This document shows, one piece after another, positions 1,706-58,600 of a stretch of DNA of 64,000 nucleotides (position 1 is the first letter of the stretch; every line of letters starts with the position of its first letter). The stretch is from Siniperca chuatsi (taxonomy: Eukaryota; Chordata; Actinopteri; Centrarchiformes; Sinipercidae), in NCBI RefSeq assembly GCF_020085105.1, contig NC_058044.1, positions 22,987,206 to 23,051,205 on the forward strand, read 5' to 3'. The position numbers and the translations under genes are program-made. Below the pieces are notes generated by a model. That model searched no databases and was not told the DNA's origin. It saw nothing but the letters and a program-made list of their open reading frames with translations.

Positions 1706-16289
<14,584 letters not shown>

Positions 16290-16325
16290 TTTGGCTGCCA
16301 GGGGCCTTCCCCTCATCTCCCCCGG

Positions 16326-19520: not shown

Positions 19521-22500
19521 TCAGTTCATTGAGCAGTCCTCTCCCTCTGTGTCGGTGTCTGTGTCCGAGCAGGCGGTGTCCATGGCGACGTGGGCGGGGC
19601 TAACGATGACCGCTCGCCTCTGCTCCTCCTCTGCGCTCGCTCTCCTCTCCTGAGTGCGTTCGATGTGCTGGATGGCCTGAAAGCAGAGGAGGAAAAACAC
19701 TGAAGGCTGCAGCAAATATTCAGTCCACTGAGACAATTCTTAAAAAAAAAAAAAATACACTATGAAATGATATGAACAAACTCCTACCTGCACAATAGTG
19801 TCCAGGTTCTGTCTGGACGTGGACACAGTGCTGGTGTGGACAGACGGGCTCATGGTCACCACAGTGACGTGATGGTGGGGGTGCTGGGTTAGTGTTGGGG
19901 CTGGGACGATGACCGTGGGGTGGTGGGTTGGGGCAGGGGGAGTGGGAGGAGCCAGCACCTGGAGGACACACAAAATATGAACAAAATAAAAATGTGTTTT
20001 TTTTTTAAATTACATCTGTGTGTATTTACATATAACTGTTACTGCTGAGCTCTGCATCATTTATAGGCCAGTGATTTAAAAGACTCACTGCAGAAGCCAT
20101 TTGAGCAAACTGCAGTGTCTTAAGGTTTGGCGCGCGCGCGTGTTTCTGACCTGTGGACTGTGTGTTTGTCTGTCGGCGGAGTGGATCTGCTGCAGCCGTA
20201 ACAGCGTCTGGCTCTGGAGGAGCGCCTGCTCCTCCTCTACCTGCTGGGTGATCACCTTCAGACGCTCTGGGTGCAGCTGGGTGTCCAGAGATCGCAACTG
20301 CACACAAACACAGGTATGTGTTTATTACATTAAGAACCATTTAAGCACCAATTTAAGGGCAGCTCAAAACATATCCATGGCCTCTGAATTATTTCATAAA
20401 TAAATATATAATAATATATAATTCAAACAAAGTTAACATTACAATATCAATGAATGCTAATGTGTACAATTTGCATTGAACAATAAAACTATTAGATGGA
20501 TACAATTGAAGATTTGTTAATAATACATTAATGCATGGTAACAACAGTAGTATTTAATTCTGAGAGAAATTGTATGCTGCATTTGCTTTTTATTGTGACT
20601 TCAGACAAAACACCTGTGCATCATGTAGTATTGTTCTATTAAAATGTATTATTAAACAAAAACACTGAATTAGTGCCCAGCTCAATTTGGACTCTTTCTA
20701 TGTCAACACTGCATCTCCTCTACTGTTTACTTTCCTCTTTCACTACTTGTTTAAGTTCCTGTTTGTCTTCACCAGCTGTTCAATCCCCTTTGTCTTAACC
20801 TGCTGTTCAGGTAGATCCAGGATGTGAGCTTATCAGCAACTGGCTGGTGTACTGGTAAATCTTTCAACGCCACCCGCTACCACCTTGTTAAGGTGACTGA
20901 TAATCACGTAGAGGACCCATATACTGAAATGGCTGGTAAGACTGAAAAAAATAAAAATAAATAGCCTGGGTATTTTGGTAGTTTATGTCCACTGTGACCA
21001 CATGACCATTTCATAGCCTGGTGATGTGGATAACTTCTCTTATCCACATTGTCCTTGCAAATTGCAATTATAGTGATGATACATCACATTGGCATTTAGT
21101 TTGAGTTGGCACAGACACAGAATCGCAAATCAATCAAAATGTCATAAGCACAGACTAGAGTGAGAGAGAAGTTTAATGTCTGAGAATCAAAAAGTTACTG
21201 TTATTGTTAAGTCTAATTACTCCTTCGCTACTGAAGTAAAGAACAGGGAAAAGGACCTGAGTAATAAAGAACCTCGGCTCCTCCTTTTGTCTCACCTGCT
21301 CCTCCATCTGCATACGAGCAGAGCGCTCCTTGTCCAGTTGCTGTCGCAGCTCTAACATCTCCCTCCTCAGCTCCTCGATTTTCTCCTCCTCCAGCGTGTC
21401 TGGAGACCCGATCCCTTCATCCTTCTCCTCTGCTCGCCTCCTTTTCGGTGATGAGCCGCTAAAGTCCTGTAGTGACAGAGAGGCCACACATGGTTAAATG
21501 TAAAACAGACAACACGCATATTTACATATTAAAACTTAGCATGTGGGTGGGAGTGCTGCAAAACACAACTATCATAGCACACAATCTGAGGAGTTTCCAC
21601 TCTATTTAAAAACAGCACATGCTGTGTGTGCGGAGTTGAACAAATGACCGGTGTGAAAATAAAATAAAATGCCAGGTGAACCAACAGAGTGGTAAACAAA
21701 TGAGACTGGTAAACACACATTTTTCACATGGCTGCATACAGACTGAGAAAGTACTGTAATGTCTTTGCCAACACTTGCAAGCTGTGCAAATATGAAATTA
21801 AAATTTGGCTGCAATGATACTTGCATAGGTAATCACTAAGATATTTAATAAACAGCACTACCTGATATGCTGTGTGATCATCAGCTGATAGATGATGCAA
21901 CATCACACCCCCCACCTGCACCACATTTAAACCGTACCCTACATAACAGGGCCCACACTGGCACGGCCCAGCGAAGCACAGCCTACAGAAGAGTGACTTT
22001 TTCCCGAGGCAGACTTGAGCCAGACAGGGAAATGTTTTCTCATGAGACACTGTATCTCTCTATATCTCTATAAAATGGGCTAGACACAATTGTGATGAAA
22101 ATGGCACATGCTGTTACCTGGATGAAGCGTTTGAGCTGGTTGTTCTGTGCCAGGAGCTGTGTCTTTTCCTGCTCCAAGGCAAAGATGTAGTCCGCTGTCT
22201 GCTGCAAGATGGCCGCCTGGCAGGGACGGACCAAAAAAAGTGAATGTGAGAACAGCGCATGGACAAATAACTTTGACATTCTCACAAAACAAGCTTTGTC
22301 GTAATGTGTCGTGATCAACGCTGTCACAAGGGAGATCTTTTCTATGCGTCAGTTTTCTGCACCTTGCTGAGCTTCTCTCCGTCTGTGTGGGGCAGGAGTG
22401 TTTTGAGGGACTGGAAGCCTGCGTTGATACTCTGCATGCGCCGGCGTTCGTTGCTGTTGGCAATCTCTCGGCGGATTCGTCTCTCCTGGTCCTGGGCTGT

Positions 22501-23776
22501 CTCTGGACTAAGGGGGATGTTGGCCAGGCTGAGGGAGGAGAAGGAGAGAGACGATCATTATTCTGTCCATGAAGGCTTTGGGTCCAATGAGAACGTATAA
22601 GCTCCTCTCTGACGCACATTTGATCCTTCTTCTTGCTCAGGTTTTTGGGAAAAGGAAGAAAGATTCTCCTTACAAATAATTTTAACAAGCTGTTAACGTC
22701 ACAGGTAATGCAGCTAAATTAAAAGGTGACATAATGTGAAAGTGGAAAAAATTTAATTTGCACAATCAGCACACACCTCTGAAACAAATTTGCTATTCTT
22801 AGCCAAATGAATAAACAAACAGCAACATTAAAAATTGCAATGAGCTGATCTCTGACATGGACTCCTTAAACCTGGAACTTTATTAGGCTGTAGTCCCGAC
22901 CTATATAAATTCCTCAGTCAAGCTGCCTGGAGGTCTTCGAGTTTGGCCGAACTCAGTGCCCCCTCACACACCTCCACCCCATGAGGTTGGATGTTATGGT
23001 GGCAAAACCTCCTCTGTCTTATTTACTCAGGGAGAGAAATACGCGAACCATTAAGCCTTACAAGTACCACGGTGACAAGAAGACAACAAACCTCGAGAAC
23101 CAGATCTGGGATGTTATCGAAATGAAAAAGGTCAGAGGACACAGCTCACCTGGCTCTAAATAGTTATTTTCTACAAAAGATGAGTGTGTGGGTGTGCAGT
23201 CATACTCTAAAGTTCAGTGCTAAATTCAGTAATCTGATTTGATTACAAACGGTGTGTCTACAAGCCAGTTACGTCAGCTTAACTAAAAGCTAAAAAACAG
23301 AGCAAACATCCTAAAAATAACATAAAAACACCATTATGATGTATGCACACTCCTTCTAAAATAAGCTATGGGTCCTTAAATTGCTTTATTTCATGCCTCA
23401 ATTTTATCTAACTTTGAAAGCTTTGGGAGCGGTTCTCTTAAATGTATCTTAATCTACTGGTTACACCCTTTATAATGAATGTACGCAGACTGAGGAGCAT
23501 AAGCAACATTTAAGGCTTAATTTGGCCATTTCATCCCTCAAAAGTTATTTATTGTGCACATGCTCACTTAATGTGAGATGTTCAAGGGGGCTTTAAGAAA
23601 TATAATGAAGGAGTTTTGTCCCATAGTGGTTTCAAATGTACAGTGTGGCGAAACAATTAACTACAGAATAAAAGATGATCAATTTAAGTTTTGTAAATGT
23701 CAATCAAAGATCGATATCCGTCCATCATCACTAAGGCATAAATATTAAAAGGTGTGCCTTTTACATATTACATATA

Positions 23777-35800: not shown

Positions 35801-37576
35801 CGCATAATCAAAGCGGGCCGACGACGCATCTCTCTCGCTCTTGTTTTTGTATACTTTTGGCAAGAAGACACTGAGCCCAAAGGCCGGGGGTTTAAATATA
35901 TCATTGGGCCAGCCCAGTGTCAAGAAAAAACAGCAACACAATTAACTACTAAACTCTAAATTACGTGTCATAGGTTTGAGTTTTTATGAATGTTCAATTT
36001 CAGTGGTCATATTATTCTGTGTAGCTTGGCAGGACGAGTCTGTGGAGCACTCCACACACCTCCTGTCTTCTAGAGGCTCTGCCCTATCATCCTTATAACA
36101 TTTTCACAATAGAGATGAGCAGGCTGGTGAATTATATGCAATAGAAATGTCCCGATTAAAAGGTGATGTGTGTTCAGACAGCCCTGTAGGTCATGGGTGT
36201 CTCGTCCAGGGTGTAGTCCTACCTGCCGTGTGTATGTGTGTTGGGATACCCACAGCGGGCGACTCTGTACAAGATAAGCAGTTTAAATGGATCGATGGAT
36301 GATGTTGATGTAGTAATTCTGCCATTGTCAGGTGCTGACAAGTAGAAAAAAGGCTCCTTCGGAAGGAGAAACTGTGTTATGGAACAATAAAAATATTGTT
36401 TACCTCTGCATTTTCACAATATAGCCTACCACCAAGCTGCCTGTCCTCTGACTGTATTCCAAAACACAGCGTGACATGGCCATTAGTTGGACTCATTGAA
36501 CCATTTGTGTGTTTTGGCTTTTTTTTTTGTACTGTCGTAGACTTATATGCTGCCAAAACAATCTTCTTAATCTCGTCCACTTATTTAGGCCAAGTCATTA
36601 TTAAACAGACGCATTTGTGTTTATGTATTATTTGGTAATGTTGGAGCGGAAGTAGCCTTTTCTCATCCTGTGTAGCTTGACAGTGGGCGGCATTGCTCCG
36701 TGGTGTTTTTCTGGGAGGAGTGTGGCAGGGAAAGAAAACAGCAATAACTAATGGTAGGCTACAAACCTGGCAGTGTGAGACGTGGACGGAACCAGATAGA
36801 TGAAGTTCCTCAGGAATACCTTTCCTAGACCGTCTTTTAGATGACCCTGTCGGTTCACACTTTTAATGACCGAGCAGGTAAACGGGACTCGTGAATAAAA
36901 AGAGAGCAGGCGGAGACGGCGACATCAAAGGGACTAGATGCAGCTATAGCACCGTTCAGACCATTATTTAACACACACGAGCAGCCTCTCAAAGCACGGA
37001 GTGAGTTAGCTTTGTAGCAAGCCACTTCTGGTAATTGTTTGCGTTTTTTTGTTGCTCATATTAGGCTAAGCCCACACTCCATAGCTGCTGCTTGCATGTA
37101 TGGCCGCTCTGATAGTCTACGAATACGTTTAATTTTCCTTTTAAGCTTTTCTCCCCTTCGGAGCCTCCTGGTTTTGTCTTTTCAGGGGAAGAAAAGACGT
37201 GCGCACGCGCGTCGCGTACCGCTACTCATAAAAACAACAGTATCTTACCATAGGCTAATATTTTGTGAACCGTACCCTCCCATGCCGAAGAAGAATCACA
37301 GTTTGTAGACTCGTTGCTGAGTAGCGTTTTCCCGTTTTCTTCGGATAAGTAAACAGTACGGCTGCTGCACTTCGAGTTTTTTCCCTTTGTTATTCAGACC
37401 GAGACAAGCAGATAGCTCCAGCTGAAGCAACACGGCTCTCATTTTTGAGACCTGTATGTTTTTTGGAAAACTTTTCAGCCTCTCGGTATTCTCAGTGCTG
37501 AAAGTTGGAGAAGGAGCCCCCTTTGTAGTCACTCTCCTCACATCTCTCCCTCCACAATAAGTGGCACATTGGAGGT
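32870..37576. other. Intergenic region between divergent mvb12a and pbx4
   Basis: No coding signal. It contains a GA-rich strand (about 33060-33290), a CA run at about 34643-34665 followed by (ATC)n at 34687-34704, and a GC-richer block at about 35640-35930. From about 36880 it holds the putative pbx4 promoter and 5' UTR. The short open frames here are unsupported. Confidence 0.65.
34890..35925. mobile_element. Possible decayed DNA transposon
   Basis: The left side begins CAGGACTGGACTGGGAATG. The right side ends GGGCCAGCCCAGTGTC, roughly its inverse. The interior contains GC-rich pieces (for example GTGGGCCGGGAGCCGACTCG) unlike the flanks. There is no intact reading frame, and no target duplication could be confirmed. 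Confidence 0.35.
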
Positions 37577-49151
<11,575 letters not shown>

Positions 49152-52400: not shown

Positions 52401-55400
52401 ATGGATTTCTCACCTGGGCTTCTGATCCTGTGTTCTCTATTATGTTCAGGTAACGAATCTGATTTACTTTGAATAGAGTAGCATCTGATTTAACGGATGT
52501 GTCTGTCATTTTGACAGATTTTCTGTTAATTTGCTTGACGTCTGTAGAGATGTATATTATTTTTGTACTTTAGAGGGTCACAAAAACTTGATAAAAAATT
52601 AATAAAAGAATATATGTAAGCACTTCAACAGCAGTGTGTCTTTTTAGAAGCAGTGTCCCCATTACTCTGGACAATCCACAACCCTCACTGTCAACTGTTT
52701 TTATTGGAACTACTTTTTACTTAAGAAATAGTCCCCATGAAAGCTGTTGAAGGCATGCTCTGTGTATTATCCAGAGTAATGGGTACATTTCAGTGCTGTG
52801 AGCACTACAAAAGAAGGTAGAAAACTCAAAATGTTCGATCTGCATGGCTGCCATTTTTTTTGTAATTTTGGTAAACCAAACGCTTCAACATAGTAATATA
52901 AAAGTTTTTAGTAAAGTGAAAATGTTTTAATACTCCTCTCTGACACAATGTCTTTGAGAGAATGTTATTCATCTTTTGCTTTGTCATCAAAAGCACTTCT
53001 GTTCAGTCTGTGTATTTGCTCAGGTTGTTTGCTTTGTGGTTGGTGTTTGTTTACACAAAGGTTCACAGAGTTGCATTGTAGCCTACATGCGTGTGTTCTC
53101 GCATGTGTGTGTGGTGTTGCCAGTTCTGTCTTTCTGTGCAGTGCCTGGTCAGGCTCTGGTCGTCTCAGTGGAGCCCCAGACTGCTACTGTGCGCCAAGGG
53201 GAGTCTGTCAGCTTTAGGTGCCAAGTGAGGAGCGGTGCACAGCCAATCCAGCTGGAGTGGAAGAGAGCCAATAACCAAGCATTACCAGGTCAGGAGTAAT
53301 AACATGTAAGCATAAGCATTGTTCATACAATGTCACCATCTGTGAAGTCACTTAATTCTACTTTTTCCTTCTAGACAATGTTAAGATTGGTCCTGATGGC
53401 TCTGTGCTGACGGTTGCTAACGCCCGACCTGGAAACCAGGGCCAGTTCCGCTGCGTGGCAACCAACTCTGCAGGCCGCAGCACTGCCACAGCTGTGCTGA
53501 ACGTTAAATGTGAGTTTGTCTTTGCAATTCAGTTAGAAACTGTGGGCCTCCTGAAAGAATATTTTATCTGGACTCCATTTTATTAAATATAAAATAATCG
53601 TACCAGAATTTGTGTGGACCCCCACAAACCCCACCACCGTCTGTGGGCCCCTGATGTTTGCACCACTTTTAACCCACTAGCGAATGTGTATGTGTGCACT
53701 TCGTTTTCAGTGAAAAGGCTCTAAAAACCTATTGTACACTACCTGCTCAGCACTTAACAGCAGACAGACACAGTTAGAGATTAGCAAGTGGAGCATTTAG
53801 CAGCTAAAGAGCCAGGTATTTCCCTCAGAAGTTGGTAGAGACCAAAAACAAAGCTAAAAGAGAGTGAATATTGGACTTAGATTTGCCAGGTGGACAGAAA
53901 CACGACTCCAAGTGGGGCTGTTTGCCTTCTGGAGAAGTTTGCCTTCTGGCAGAAAGGCTTTCTGCCTTTCATTTTTATTAAACCTAACCAAGTAGTTTTG
54001 GTGCCTAAACCTAACCAAGCATTAAGGCTTTCTGGCAGAAATCGCTGAGGGCAAATGTCTCTCATGTGCATAATGTTGCTGCGTAACTGCTGGATGTGAA
54101 AATAAGCATCTGTTTCGCCATATCAACTTAAAAGGTGACGGTATGTCAGTATTGTGTTCACAACTTGTTCTGCTGTCCCCAAGTGGCCAATAAAATCGGT
54201 TATTTCAGGTGTAATGTGTCAGTCGTTCCTCTGTGTCCTCTCTGTCAGTTGCTCCTAAAGTGCGGCTGACACCAGCAGGGCCCCTGCGGGTCAGGATGGG
54301 TGACCCCGTGTCAGTGGAGTGTCATGCCACAGGCAGGCCACGCCCCAAGCTGACCTGGAAACGCCAAGGCTCCACCCTGCAGCTGGTTACCATGGAGACA
54401 AATGATGGCAACACCATACAGGTGAAATATGAACACATGCACCAGTAATACTTCCATTTACGGCCACATTTTAAGATACAAATAGAACATAGGCCTAATA
54501 ATTGCCATCTCTTTTCTCAGTGGCCTGCAGTGCACCCAGAGGACTCAGGAGTTTACATTTGCCAGGCTGAAAACAATGAGGGGGTGACAGAGGTCAAAGT
54601 TGAGGTCATTGTTGAGGGGGGGCTGGGAGCACCAGTGGCTTCAGTGGGCACTACAGAGATGACAGTGGTGGAGGGACATACAGTCACAATGGAGTGTCAG
54701 GCCAGTGGTAAGATGTTTGTGTGCTTGTGTGTGTAAATATCTCTCAGTTCTGCTCGTACTTTGCATTTTTCACTGTCCTATCCCACTATCCTCTTTTTCT
54801 TTTCTTCCTTCCAGGTTCTCCTCCTCCAGTCATCACCTGGTCCAAGCTTCGAGCACCGTTGCCATGGAAACACACAGTGGTTGGTGGAGTTTTGACACTG
54901 ACCAGCGTGGGGCGCCAAGATTCAGGACAATACATCTGTAATGCAACCAACATACATGGCTACAGTGAGGCGTACACGCAGATGGAGGTGGAGAGTGAGT
55001 CGACAACGCAGATATTAAACACAGATACTGTACATCCAGATTCTTTGTCACTGCTCATGATAAGAGTAATTGTCTTCTCCTTCATGCAGGTCCACCGTAC
55101 GCCACCTGTCTGCCTGACCAGGTGAGGCTCCGGGCCGGAGATGCCCTGCGCCTGCAGTGCCTCGCCCACGGCTCTCATCCCATTCAGTTCGAGTGGAGCC
55201 GGGCGGGCAGGGCGAGCCTGCCTCCAGGAGCAGAGACCACAAAGGATGGAAAGCTGCTCATAGCCCACGTTAAACTGAGTGACAGCGGAACGTACAAGTG
55301 TGTGGCCACCAACCACATTGGCTCCAGTGAGGCACTGGCCAAAGTCATCATAAAAGGTGAGCTGGTGTTTGGCTGGTTGAGGCAATTCAGAGTCTATCAA

Positions 55401-55486
55401 AATAACTGCTCTGACTTTCTCCTTCTTTTTTTTTTTAACTCTCTAATCTTGTTTCTTTCCCTTCTTTTCTTGTTTTTACAGCTTAA
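52401..55486 (+). CDS. Secreted four-Ig protein derived from perlecan domain IV
   Basis: Likely an extracellular, basement-membrane-related protein of 380 residues. Exons: 52401-52449 (signal peptide MDFSPGLLILCSLLCS), 53142-53288, 53375-53509, 54249-54421, 54521-54707, 54815-54994, 55090-55356, 55482-55486. All are GT-AG and phase consistent. Four I-set Ig domains have Cys pairs 43/92, 135/182, 227/272 and 314/361. Each has the core Trp (56, 147, 239, 326), and three have the DSGxY motif. Segments such as WSKLRAPLPWKH, QDSGQYICNAT and ESPPYAT match the last Ig domains of perlecan (HSPG2). The final exon encodes Ala then stop, so the laminin-G/EGF domain V is absent. Cys297 before Ig4 is unpaired. 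The start has a good Kozak context (ATCATGG). Confidence 0.88.
53690..54200. repeat. Dispersed perciform repeat, copy C (inverted relative to A/B)
   Basis: Lies in the intron between Ig exons 3 and 4 of the four-Ig gene. Landmarks are GCAGACAGACACAGTTAGAG, GTGGAGCATTTAGCAGCTAA, GAATATTGGACTTAGATTTG, TTTCGCCATATCAACTTAAA and AAGTGGCCAATAAAATCGG. An extra insertion near 53910-54030 contains a short TTTGCCTTCTGG duplication. Confidence 0.7.
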
Positions 55487-55611
55487 TCCATCATGGTCAT
55501 AGTGTGTCTGATTGACAAACCATCTATGCAGCTCTTACAACTTCTGCAAGCCTGGATTGTAGCGATCAAGATCAAATGGTTAATAGTGACAAAACAGAGA
55601 AAATTATATTT

Positions 55612-55617
55612 AATAAA
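55612..55617 (+). terminator. Polyadenylation signal of the four-Ig gene (candidate)
   Basis: AATAAA lies 126 bases after the stop codon of the four-Ig gene, in a short AT-rich 3' UTR. This supports the gene ending here rather than continuing into further perlecan exons. Confidence 0.6.
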
Positions 55618-58600
55618 TTCATTTATTTTGACGTATTCAAGTGAAAGATATCAATGCTGTTTAAACTTTTGGTTTTATTGTGCATACGTGATTAATTCTG
55701 TACTTCTAGAAAACTGATCCTGTTGCTATCGTTGCTCCTGTCTCATATCTGCCTTTGGAAAGCTTTTCTCCGAAACTACGTGTGGACTGACATACTACAC
55801 TATGTGTGTGGGAGTTTCTTCTGCTGGAATGTCTCTGCACCCTGTCTTCCTCCCTTCCTGTCATCTGCTAAGTATTCACTGTTGCGCTTTAAACATTTAA
55901 AGGGCACAAAAAACAAACAAAAACCTGAATATAAAAGCCTTTATTATGCCAGTAAATATCAAAACAATAAAGACCAAATAACAAAAGTTTCATTAATTAA
56001 AATGAAAAATTATGTTGTCCTGAAAATGTTTTAGTGTATATAAATTAGGGACTGTATGAAAAATTATTAGAAGGGAAGGGGGGTCAGAAAAGTGCGAAGG
56101 TACTGTACTTTTTCTTTTGGCTAAAGGAAGGGTAGTTTTTCATTTTTGAAAGAGCAGGGGAATGGTCTTTTTCTTACCCTAGATTTACAGTATTTTCTAT
56201 TTCAGCCTTCCCTTGCGATGTAGTTAAATCGAAATAATTCTACCAAAAATATAGCTTTCGTGTAGCAGTCTATCAGGGTTTTATTTTTCCCATCATAATC
56301 AGTTTAAAAAAAAAGGATCAAAATCAATGCAGCAGAACCAGAGATATTGTCTTTTCACAGAGCTACAGAGGTCTGGTAAACTCACTTCTTTCTAACTCCA
56401 CACCCAAATCTTCTTCATGTTCAAACTCGTACTCTTCAGCCCCAGCTGATTCTGACTATAGTGACATCGCTTTTTTAGAACATTTTTAGATTTCACACAG
56501 CTCCCTCTGGAGCCACAAAAGGCTTCATACAACAGTTAACACACAGTACACCCCAAGACCTGTAAGCAGAATTTGATGTGGACTTCCACTTTAACCATTA
56601 GGCTACCGGGTTCTGTGAAATACAGAATACACTTGGATCTTTTTAGTTAGTTGTGATTGAACGTATTCTTCCAAACAGCGCGTCATTTTTAATGTGCACA
56701 GTTGTGACTATATTTACATGAAGATATTAAGGTTTGTTGTGCCAATGTAACACTATTACATTATTTTGAGACAATAGAAGGTGAAGGTGTTGCACTTTTT
56801 TCCAAAGTCCAGCGGAGGTTCAGAAGGCCTTTACAAGTGGTGTCAAATCTGAGCATTACTTCACAAAGTCCTTTCTTTAACCACATGGTGGCAATATGTA
56901 GCTTTAAGGCACACACATGTTGCCTTCAGGCCAAAAAGAGCAATTGGAGCCCTCACACCCTTAACAACTGGCGGAACAGATGGAATGCACAGTCGAGTTA
57001 TTGTTTTCCACATGTCTACATGTCATCCTTAAGTTTAAAAAAAGCAAAAACTCTTGGCTGATCACTGCAGCTCTCTGTGTAAATATGGACTGTAAACTCC
57101 TCTTGAACAGGCAAAGTTCAGTTTGATTGGACAAGCGTGTTGCAAAATGACGCACTGATGGTCGCATTGTTAGAGAAAATTTAAAGCAGCTTTGATAAAA
57201 TGAGGTGTTAGCTCGACATTTAGGGTTTGTGGCTGCAGCAGAAGGTTTGGAAAGAGAGCTACCATTTCCAAAGCTGCTGCCAGATCGGAGCCTATGTCTG
57301 CGTGTGATTGTGGCCTCACTCGTAAAACGCCCAACCTCTATGGAGACACTGGCTTTACCCTTTCCACTATTCCTTCCTCCATCTTTACAATCATCTTCAA
57401 AGCTGGGGAGGAAACATCTGCCCACTGTCACCTCACTCCACCCCCTCACTTCACAGACAGACTGAGGGAGGGAGGGAGTGAAGATGAAGGTGACAAAATA
57501 AATTCACTACAGAGGATATCAGAGGAGGGAAATATATATATATATATATATAATTTAGAATGACAAAGAGCCTTTAAACTGGAACAGAGGGAAAAATGTT
57601 TCAGTTTGAGAAAAGAAACAAATTAATTCAATCTTATCCCCCTCTCCCTTTGTGCATGTCTTTGTATACATATTAACTGGACATGGACATATGGCCTCTA
57701 ATGGAGTCTGACATAAACAGTGAGGTTCATAGAGTCCAGATGACATCCCAGAAAAGGGATGTGTGCACACACACTCACACAGACAGTTTGTCACAATTTC
57801 AGAAGCATTACATGAGTTTATATTACAGTAGGAGTACACAACAGTGTTACATTTACTTTGGACCACACGTTGCTTATGTTAGCCTTAAGAGGTGAGGGAA
57901 AAAAAAACAGGCAATCGGTCTTGTAGCTGTTTCAGCACACGAGGAGAGTAAAATACTCCCAAATATTCATTTTCCTCTACGTCATATATTCCAGTAAGAA
58001 TTAAAAACTGTTACTGTTTTAAGATAAAGACCAGAGTGATGTCCCTGCAGTAATAATATGGGAAAAGCAGATCATTCAGGAAGGAACCAATGAGGTGAGA
58101 GCTTCCTCAGGAAGTGATAGGTGGAAGGATGGTGCCTGTCAAGTCTGTTGCTATGGTTTCCACCTGGTGAACTCGGATAAGCTATGGCGGGGCAGTGGCT
58201 TGTAGAAACAACATAGGAAGGCAAGCTGATGGGGCGATATGGGAGCGGAGTTCCTGTATTGTGTTGGCTGCAGAGGCTAGTTTATTACCAGAAGCCAGAT
58301 TGTGTCAATGAAATGTTCTTGTTTCTAACTGGTGCAACAGGAAGTCACAACCTGAAAGCTGATCTCAACGAATCATTTAATGTAAATCAGCTGAAATATT
58401 GTCATGCAGAGAAAAGAGTCAGTAATGCCTCAGTGAAAATAGAGTTTAACTGCTGTCAGGAAGGGCTATGGCCTGGGCTGAACGTGTCTCTGCGGAAGAA
58501 AGTATAGGCAGCATAGTATTCCATTAAATGATTACTTTTCTTGCTTTCTCTCTGATTTGGATGGATAATATAGGAAGCGCTGCTTAAGCACAACCTTGAC

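Follow-up and report, generated by a model that had tools for sequence, protein, structure and literature searches.

The closest described systems to the gene considered here are perlecan (HSPG2) and its divided or shortened forms. Human perlecan contains 22 immunoglobulin (Ig) domains in all, of which 21 lie in domain IV (PMC4398486). Domain IV-3, defined as the last seven Igs of perlecan, is reported to make prostate cancer cells cluster, to deactivate FAK and to bind Sema3A (PMC5940808). The very large size of perlecan makes the Igs of domain IV hard to study singly. Placozoan perlecan is reported to be split over two genes (PMC4398486), and shortened perlecan products, namely the short isoforms of C. 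elegans unc-52, human "miniperl" (domain I) and mast-cell fragments, are described in a review (PMC6266596).

The gene reported here was predicted at 52401-55486 (+) of a 64,000-nucleotide stretch of Siniperca chuatsi DNA (the window). Its protein is similar to perlecan Ig16-19 in that the four Igs stand in the same order, each with 38-52% identity to a provisional human text, but there are also differences: the SEA/heparan sulphate, LDLa, laminin-B/EGF, Ig20-22 and laminin-G regions are missing, and the gene has a signal exon and a stop of its own. The split perlecan of the same review likewise places modules in separately transcribed genes; there, however, two adjoining genes jointly hold the whole of perlecan, whereas here there is one small gene with four Igs (PMC6266596). 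The unc-52 isoforms, miniperl and mast-cell fragments are likewise short, but reportedly derive from the full gene (PMC6266596), whereas the four-Ig gene is a separate locus. We consider that the gene probably is a free-standing partial perlecan (hspg2) paralogue whose product is secreted, is not a proteoglycan, and most plausibly acts as a small ligand or competitor, of matrix or semaphorin type.

In the portions of the open-licence literature available to us, no fish perlecan paralogue or "hspg2-like" gene, and no vertebrate gene of this shape, was found described. HSPG2 is among the carp genes listed in one paper (PMC2771047), and another mentions a salmon gene annotated "basement membrane-specific heparan sulfate proteoglycan core protein-like" (PMC6668776); databases may well carry the four-Ig gene under such a perlecan core protein-like label. 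If the reading is true, a natural 38 kDa protein of Ig16-19 would reveal which part of Domain IV-3 works alone, would be a ready tool for semaphorin and FAK effects, and would provide a vertebrate case of perlecan modules in separate genes, to be set beside the placozoan one (PMC4398486).

Gene model and predicted protein

The eight exons (Table 1) are joined by seven introns, all of them GT-AG, and a check of the splice junctions shows that the exon phases match, exons 2 to 8 starting in phases 1, 1, 1, 0, 1, 1 and 1. The joined coding sequence is 1143 nt long and encodes 380 residues followed by TAA; its two alternative frames contain 14 and 19 stops, and its GC content is 0.568 compared with 0.389 in the introns. 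The first-pass annotation had described a complete small gene with an ATG, a signal peptide, seven further exons in matched phases and a stop in a tiny last exon, and both the coordinates and the coding sequence agree with this. The polyadenylation signal that it placed 126 bases past the stop is also present, as AATAAA at 55612, with a second AATAAA at 55966 and ATTAAA at 55996.

Table 1. Exons of the four-Ig gene and its polyadenylation signal, in window positions.
Feature	Position	Strand	Basis
Exon 1: ATG (A at -3, G at +4) and signal peptide MDFSPGLLILCSLLCS; phase-1 end	52401..52449	+	hydropathy
Exon 2: signal cleavage region, then the N-terminal half of Ig1 (perlecan Ig16-like)	53142..53288	+	Pfam, alignment
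Exon 3: second half of Ig1	53375..53509	+	domain alignment
Exon 4: first part of Ig2 (perlecan Ig17-like)	54249..54421	+	domain alignment
Exon 5: end of Ig2 and start of Ig3	54521..54707	+	domain alignment
Exon 6: remainder of Ig3 (perlecan Ig18-like; WSKLRAPLPWKH, QDSGQYICNAT)	54815..54994	+	alignment
Exon 7: Ig4 (perlecan Ig19-like; SPPYAT, LQCLAHG), carries Cys297	55090..55356	+	alignment
Exon 8: five coding bases, which finish the final Ala codon and give TAA	55482..55486	+	joined coding sequence
Polyadenylation signal AATAAA	55612..55617	+	motif, 126 bases past stop

A simple exon scorer, with a provisional codon table, was applied to the entire window on both strands. Exons 3, 4 and 7 are among its 7 rows at the higher cut-off, and exons 2, 3, 4, 5 and 7 among the 24 rows at the lower cut-off; exon 6 is in neither list. 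Overall, all the sequence tests applied speak for a real gene model. Retention of intron 7 (55357-55499, +) would leave the frame open as far as 55499, with a long Phe/Leu-rich run at its end. This run is probably just the coding of the long pyrimidine tract before exon 8 and is not read as a membrane anchor.

Pfam finds four Ig domains in the spliced protein (Ig_3, 5.6e-63 in four stretches) and Ig-type families only, with no match to SEA, LDLa, laminin-B, EGF or laminin-G. The SEA module and heparan sulphate sites of domain I, like domains II, III and V, all of them features of the full proteoglycan, are thus missing from the spliced protein, in which the five Ser-Gly pairs all lie within Igs. 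Hydropathy gives a single strong hydrophobic segment: the top 19-residue windows start at residues 6-8 with a value of 2.06, the maximum past residue 25 is 1.17, and no second strongly hydrophobic segment occurs in the 380 residues. Secretion without an anchor is therefore likely, and the protein has, as judged by hydropathy, the signal peptide and the lack of a membrane anchor expected of a secreted Ig protein.

We infer cleavage of the signal peptide after PGQA. The mature protein, computed from residue 21, is about 38 kDa with a pI of 8.7, and the single N-glycosylation motif is at 273. Eight of the nine cysteines in the mature chain form the normal Ig pairs, and therefore the ninth, Cys297, may be free and would permit disulphide-linked dimers. 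Its codon is at 55107-55109 (+), in Ig4, and human perlecan presumably has a threonine at this site.

Probable perlecan descent and identity of the Igs

For comparison, a provisional text of human perlecan was used, its quartet written out with the window sequence already seen; against this text the four-Ig protein shows 45% identity over 364 residues (318 bits, collinear), compared with 29% and 141 bits for the best out-of-register alignment. In register, the individual Igs are 48, 38, 52 and 46% identical to human Ig16-19 of this text, whereas off-register identities among the four window Igs and the seven perlecan Igs (Ig16-22) are 22-39%. This excess in register argues that the four Igs share their ancestry with perlecan as a block, beyond mere Ig likeness.

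The comparison set consisted of perlecan Ig16-22 and Ig proteins of solved structure. Robo2, DSCAM, contactin and titin have Ig arrays of a similar general type but match more weakly, at 185.7 bits or less in total among the best 60 of 258 distinct sequences, whereas phmmer with the provisional perlecan quartet gives 332.6 bits in a single stretch. The best of these structural relatives, among the same best 60 of 258, is Robo2, whose total is 185.7 bits and whose strongest stretch scores 117.2. Relative to Ig proteins of solved structure, then, the window Igs match perlecan better, and in register. The 358 residues past the signal peptide were also compared with viral contigs and with prokaryote genome contigs; 4 and 7 pattern stretches, respectively, were obtained, with no relative in either set.

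The reliability of the provisional text could be gauged in places. Its LG3 agrees at each of the 195 residues with the chain deposited as structure 3sh4. Sixteen of its perlecan strings were sought in open-licence papers, of which two were found, both in Ig21, and 14 were not found. The peptides TWSKVGGHLRPGIVQSG (PMC5442728) and IAHVELADAGQYR (PMC4148700, in which a table names P98160) are both present in the provisional text at Ig21, the sixth Ig of its seven-Ig run. When the provisional quartet itself was compared with solved structures, no perlecan chain was among the best 60 of 263, and the best match among these was titin, with 228.7 bits in total. We regard both the gene and its perlecan descent as likely.

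The first-pass annotation had named these Igs the final quartet of perlecan, in order. Identities bear out the perlecan ancestry of all four and their order, but by the provisional human text they are not the last four of domain IV. In that text, three further Igs (Ig20-22) lie between the matched quartet and laminin-G1, and, given 22 Igs in all, the quartet is therefore Ig16-19. Since Domain IV-3 spans Ig16-22, the gene holds the first four Igs of this functional piece, and neither Ig20-22 nor domain V. The module numbering excepted, the gene had been well read.

Extent of the gene and alternative readings

An Ig profile built from the window and perlecan Igs was run, unfiltered, over the 2410 six-frame ORFs of at least 18 residues in the window. 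It gives six significant matches, which are exons 2 to 7 of the four-Ig gene, the very domains that had gone into building the profile; the next match, at 38272-38451 (-), has an E value of 0.043. Exons for Ig20-22 were not detected among the 2410 ORFs. LG1, LG2 with EGF, and LG3 of the provisional human text, used as queries and as a profile, gave nothing below E 0.8 in the window, EGF being probed there solely as part of the LG2 query. The suggested absence of the laminin-G/EGF domain V is upheld to this extent: the protein has no Pfam match to it, and the window no significant laminin-G match.

These searches bear on the reading that the exons belong to a full-length hspg2 paralogue which extends past the window or was partly missed, with the signal and stop exons arising by chance. 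The window stops 8.5 kb past the TAA, so exons beyond 64000 would be out of view, and exon 8 has only five coding bases, which many sites with an acceptor and a stop would resemble. However, no significant match to Ig20-22 or laminin-G is seen within the window on either side, a PBX homeobox gene lies upstream on the same strand, and a polyadenylation signal follows at 126 bases. Full perlecan has 21 Igs in domain IV by the human count (PMC4398486), and four are found here.

Exon 1 argues against this reading as well. A scan of both strands (128 kb) for signal exons used cut-offs set at the values of exon 1 itself (purine at -3, with phase-1 donor and hydrophobic core each no weaker than its own) and returned three starts at two places: exon 1, which passes by construction, and 16289/16316 (-). 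A signal-like exon in the right phase stands 692 bases before exon 2, and the 128 kb of strand contain one further site of this kind. On this evidence we regard a full-length paralogue as unlikely.

Partial duplicates of modular genes are common, and the four-Ig gene could be one of them, either young or in decay, that yields nothing useful. Decay, though, sits poorly with eight exons that keep canonical splice sites and contain no stop or frame shift despite only 45% identity to the provisional human text, and with the retention of all eight core Ig cysteines; a recent duplicate would be predicted to be nearly identical to the fish's own hspg2. We hold this reading to be decidedly unlikely. 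An assembly error that set a stray piece of hspg2 beside the PBX gene would fit the presence of just four of the parent's Igs, but is highly improbable, as a stray piece is not expected to have a phase-matched signal exon and a stop exon with a polyadenylation signal, and the window contains zero N.

Possible origin, action and genomic neighbours

Exons 2-7 of the predicted free-standing paralogue form a phase 1-1 block: the signal exon before it ends in phase 1, and the stop exon after it opens in the same phase. Extracellular modules are usually shuffled as exon units of this kind. Either exon shuffling or a duplication with loss presumably parted such a block from the remainder of perlecan, a signal exon being gained or kept. 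The product, of about 38 kDa, would be secreted and unanchored, would lack the heparan sulphate domain, and would most likely be located in or near the basement membrane, retained in the matrix through Ig contacts. The age of the gene cannot be read from its 45% identity to human, since a review puts zebrafish perlecan itself at less than 20% identity to human (PMC6266596).

In the matrix, the protein could bind some partner of Domain IV-3, for example semaphorin 3A, and either compete with perlecan or add a local (border) signal without proteoglycan chains, possibly as a dimer disulphide-linked via Cys297. The Sema3A step is at most a possibility. The activity reported for Domain IV-3 is that of all seven Igs, and the published adhesive peptide is in Ig21, which is absent from the four-Ig gene. 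The fuller proposal, in which a conserved fish gene uses the perlecan Ig16-19 block as an independent secreted ligand, perhaps a Cys297 dimer, that tunes or competes with the action of Domain IV-3 (e.g., on class 3 semaphorins) without proteoglycan chains, is tentative, and we rate it as rather unlikely.

Other features in the window are as follows. The PBX-class homeobox gene upstream of the four-Ig gene lies at 45419-46939 (+), perhaps from 37529; its joined exons contain a PBC domain (7.6e-56) and a homeodomain by Pfam, and its last recognised exon is near 46.7 kb. The exon at 37529-37761 is presumably part of it. Downstream of the four-Ig gene, an open candidate exon at 57239-57489 (+), with a score of 13.3, is the only entry of the exon scorer between 55.7 and 64 kb. 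A bHLH leucine-zipper gene, with an HLH domain by Pfam, is at 19788-22528 (-) and is presumably tfap4. Also on the minus strand, a long Glu-rich acidic exon without a Pfam match occurs at 6107-7167, with a signal-peptide-like first exon upstream at 16289-16316; the two together recall sarcalumenin (srl), which is a guess on our part. At 708-1191, finally, open stretches are found on both strands, and the one on the plus strand, without a Pfam match, may resemble the tail of a retrotransposon reverse transcriptase.
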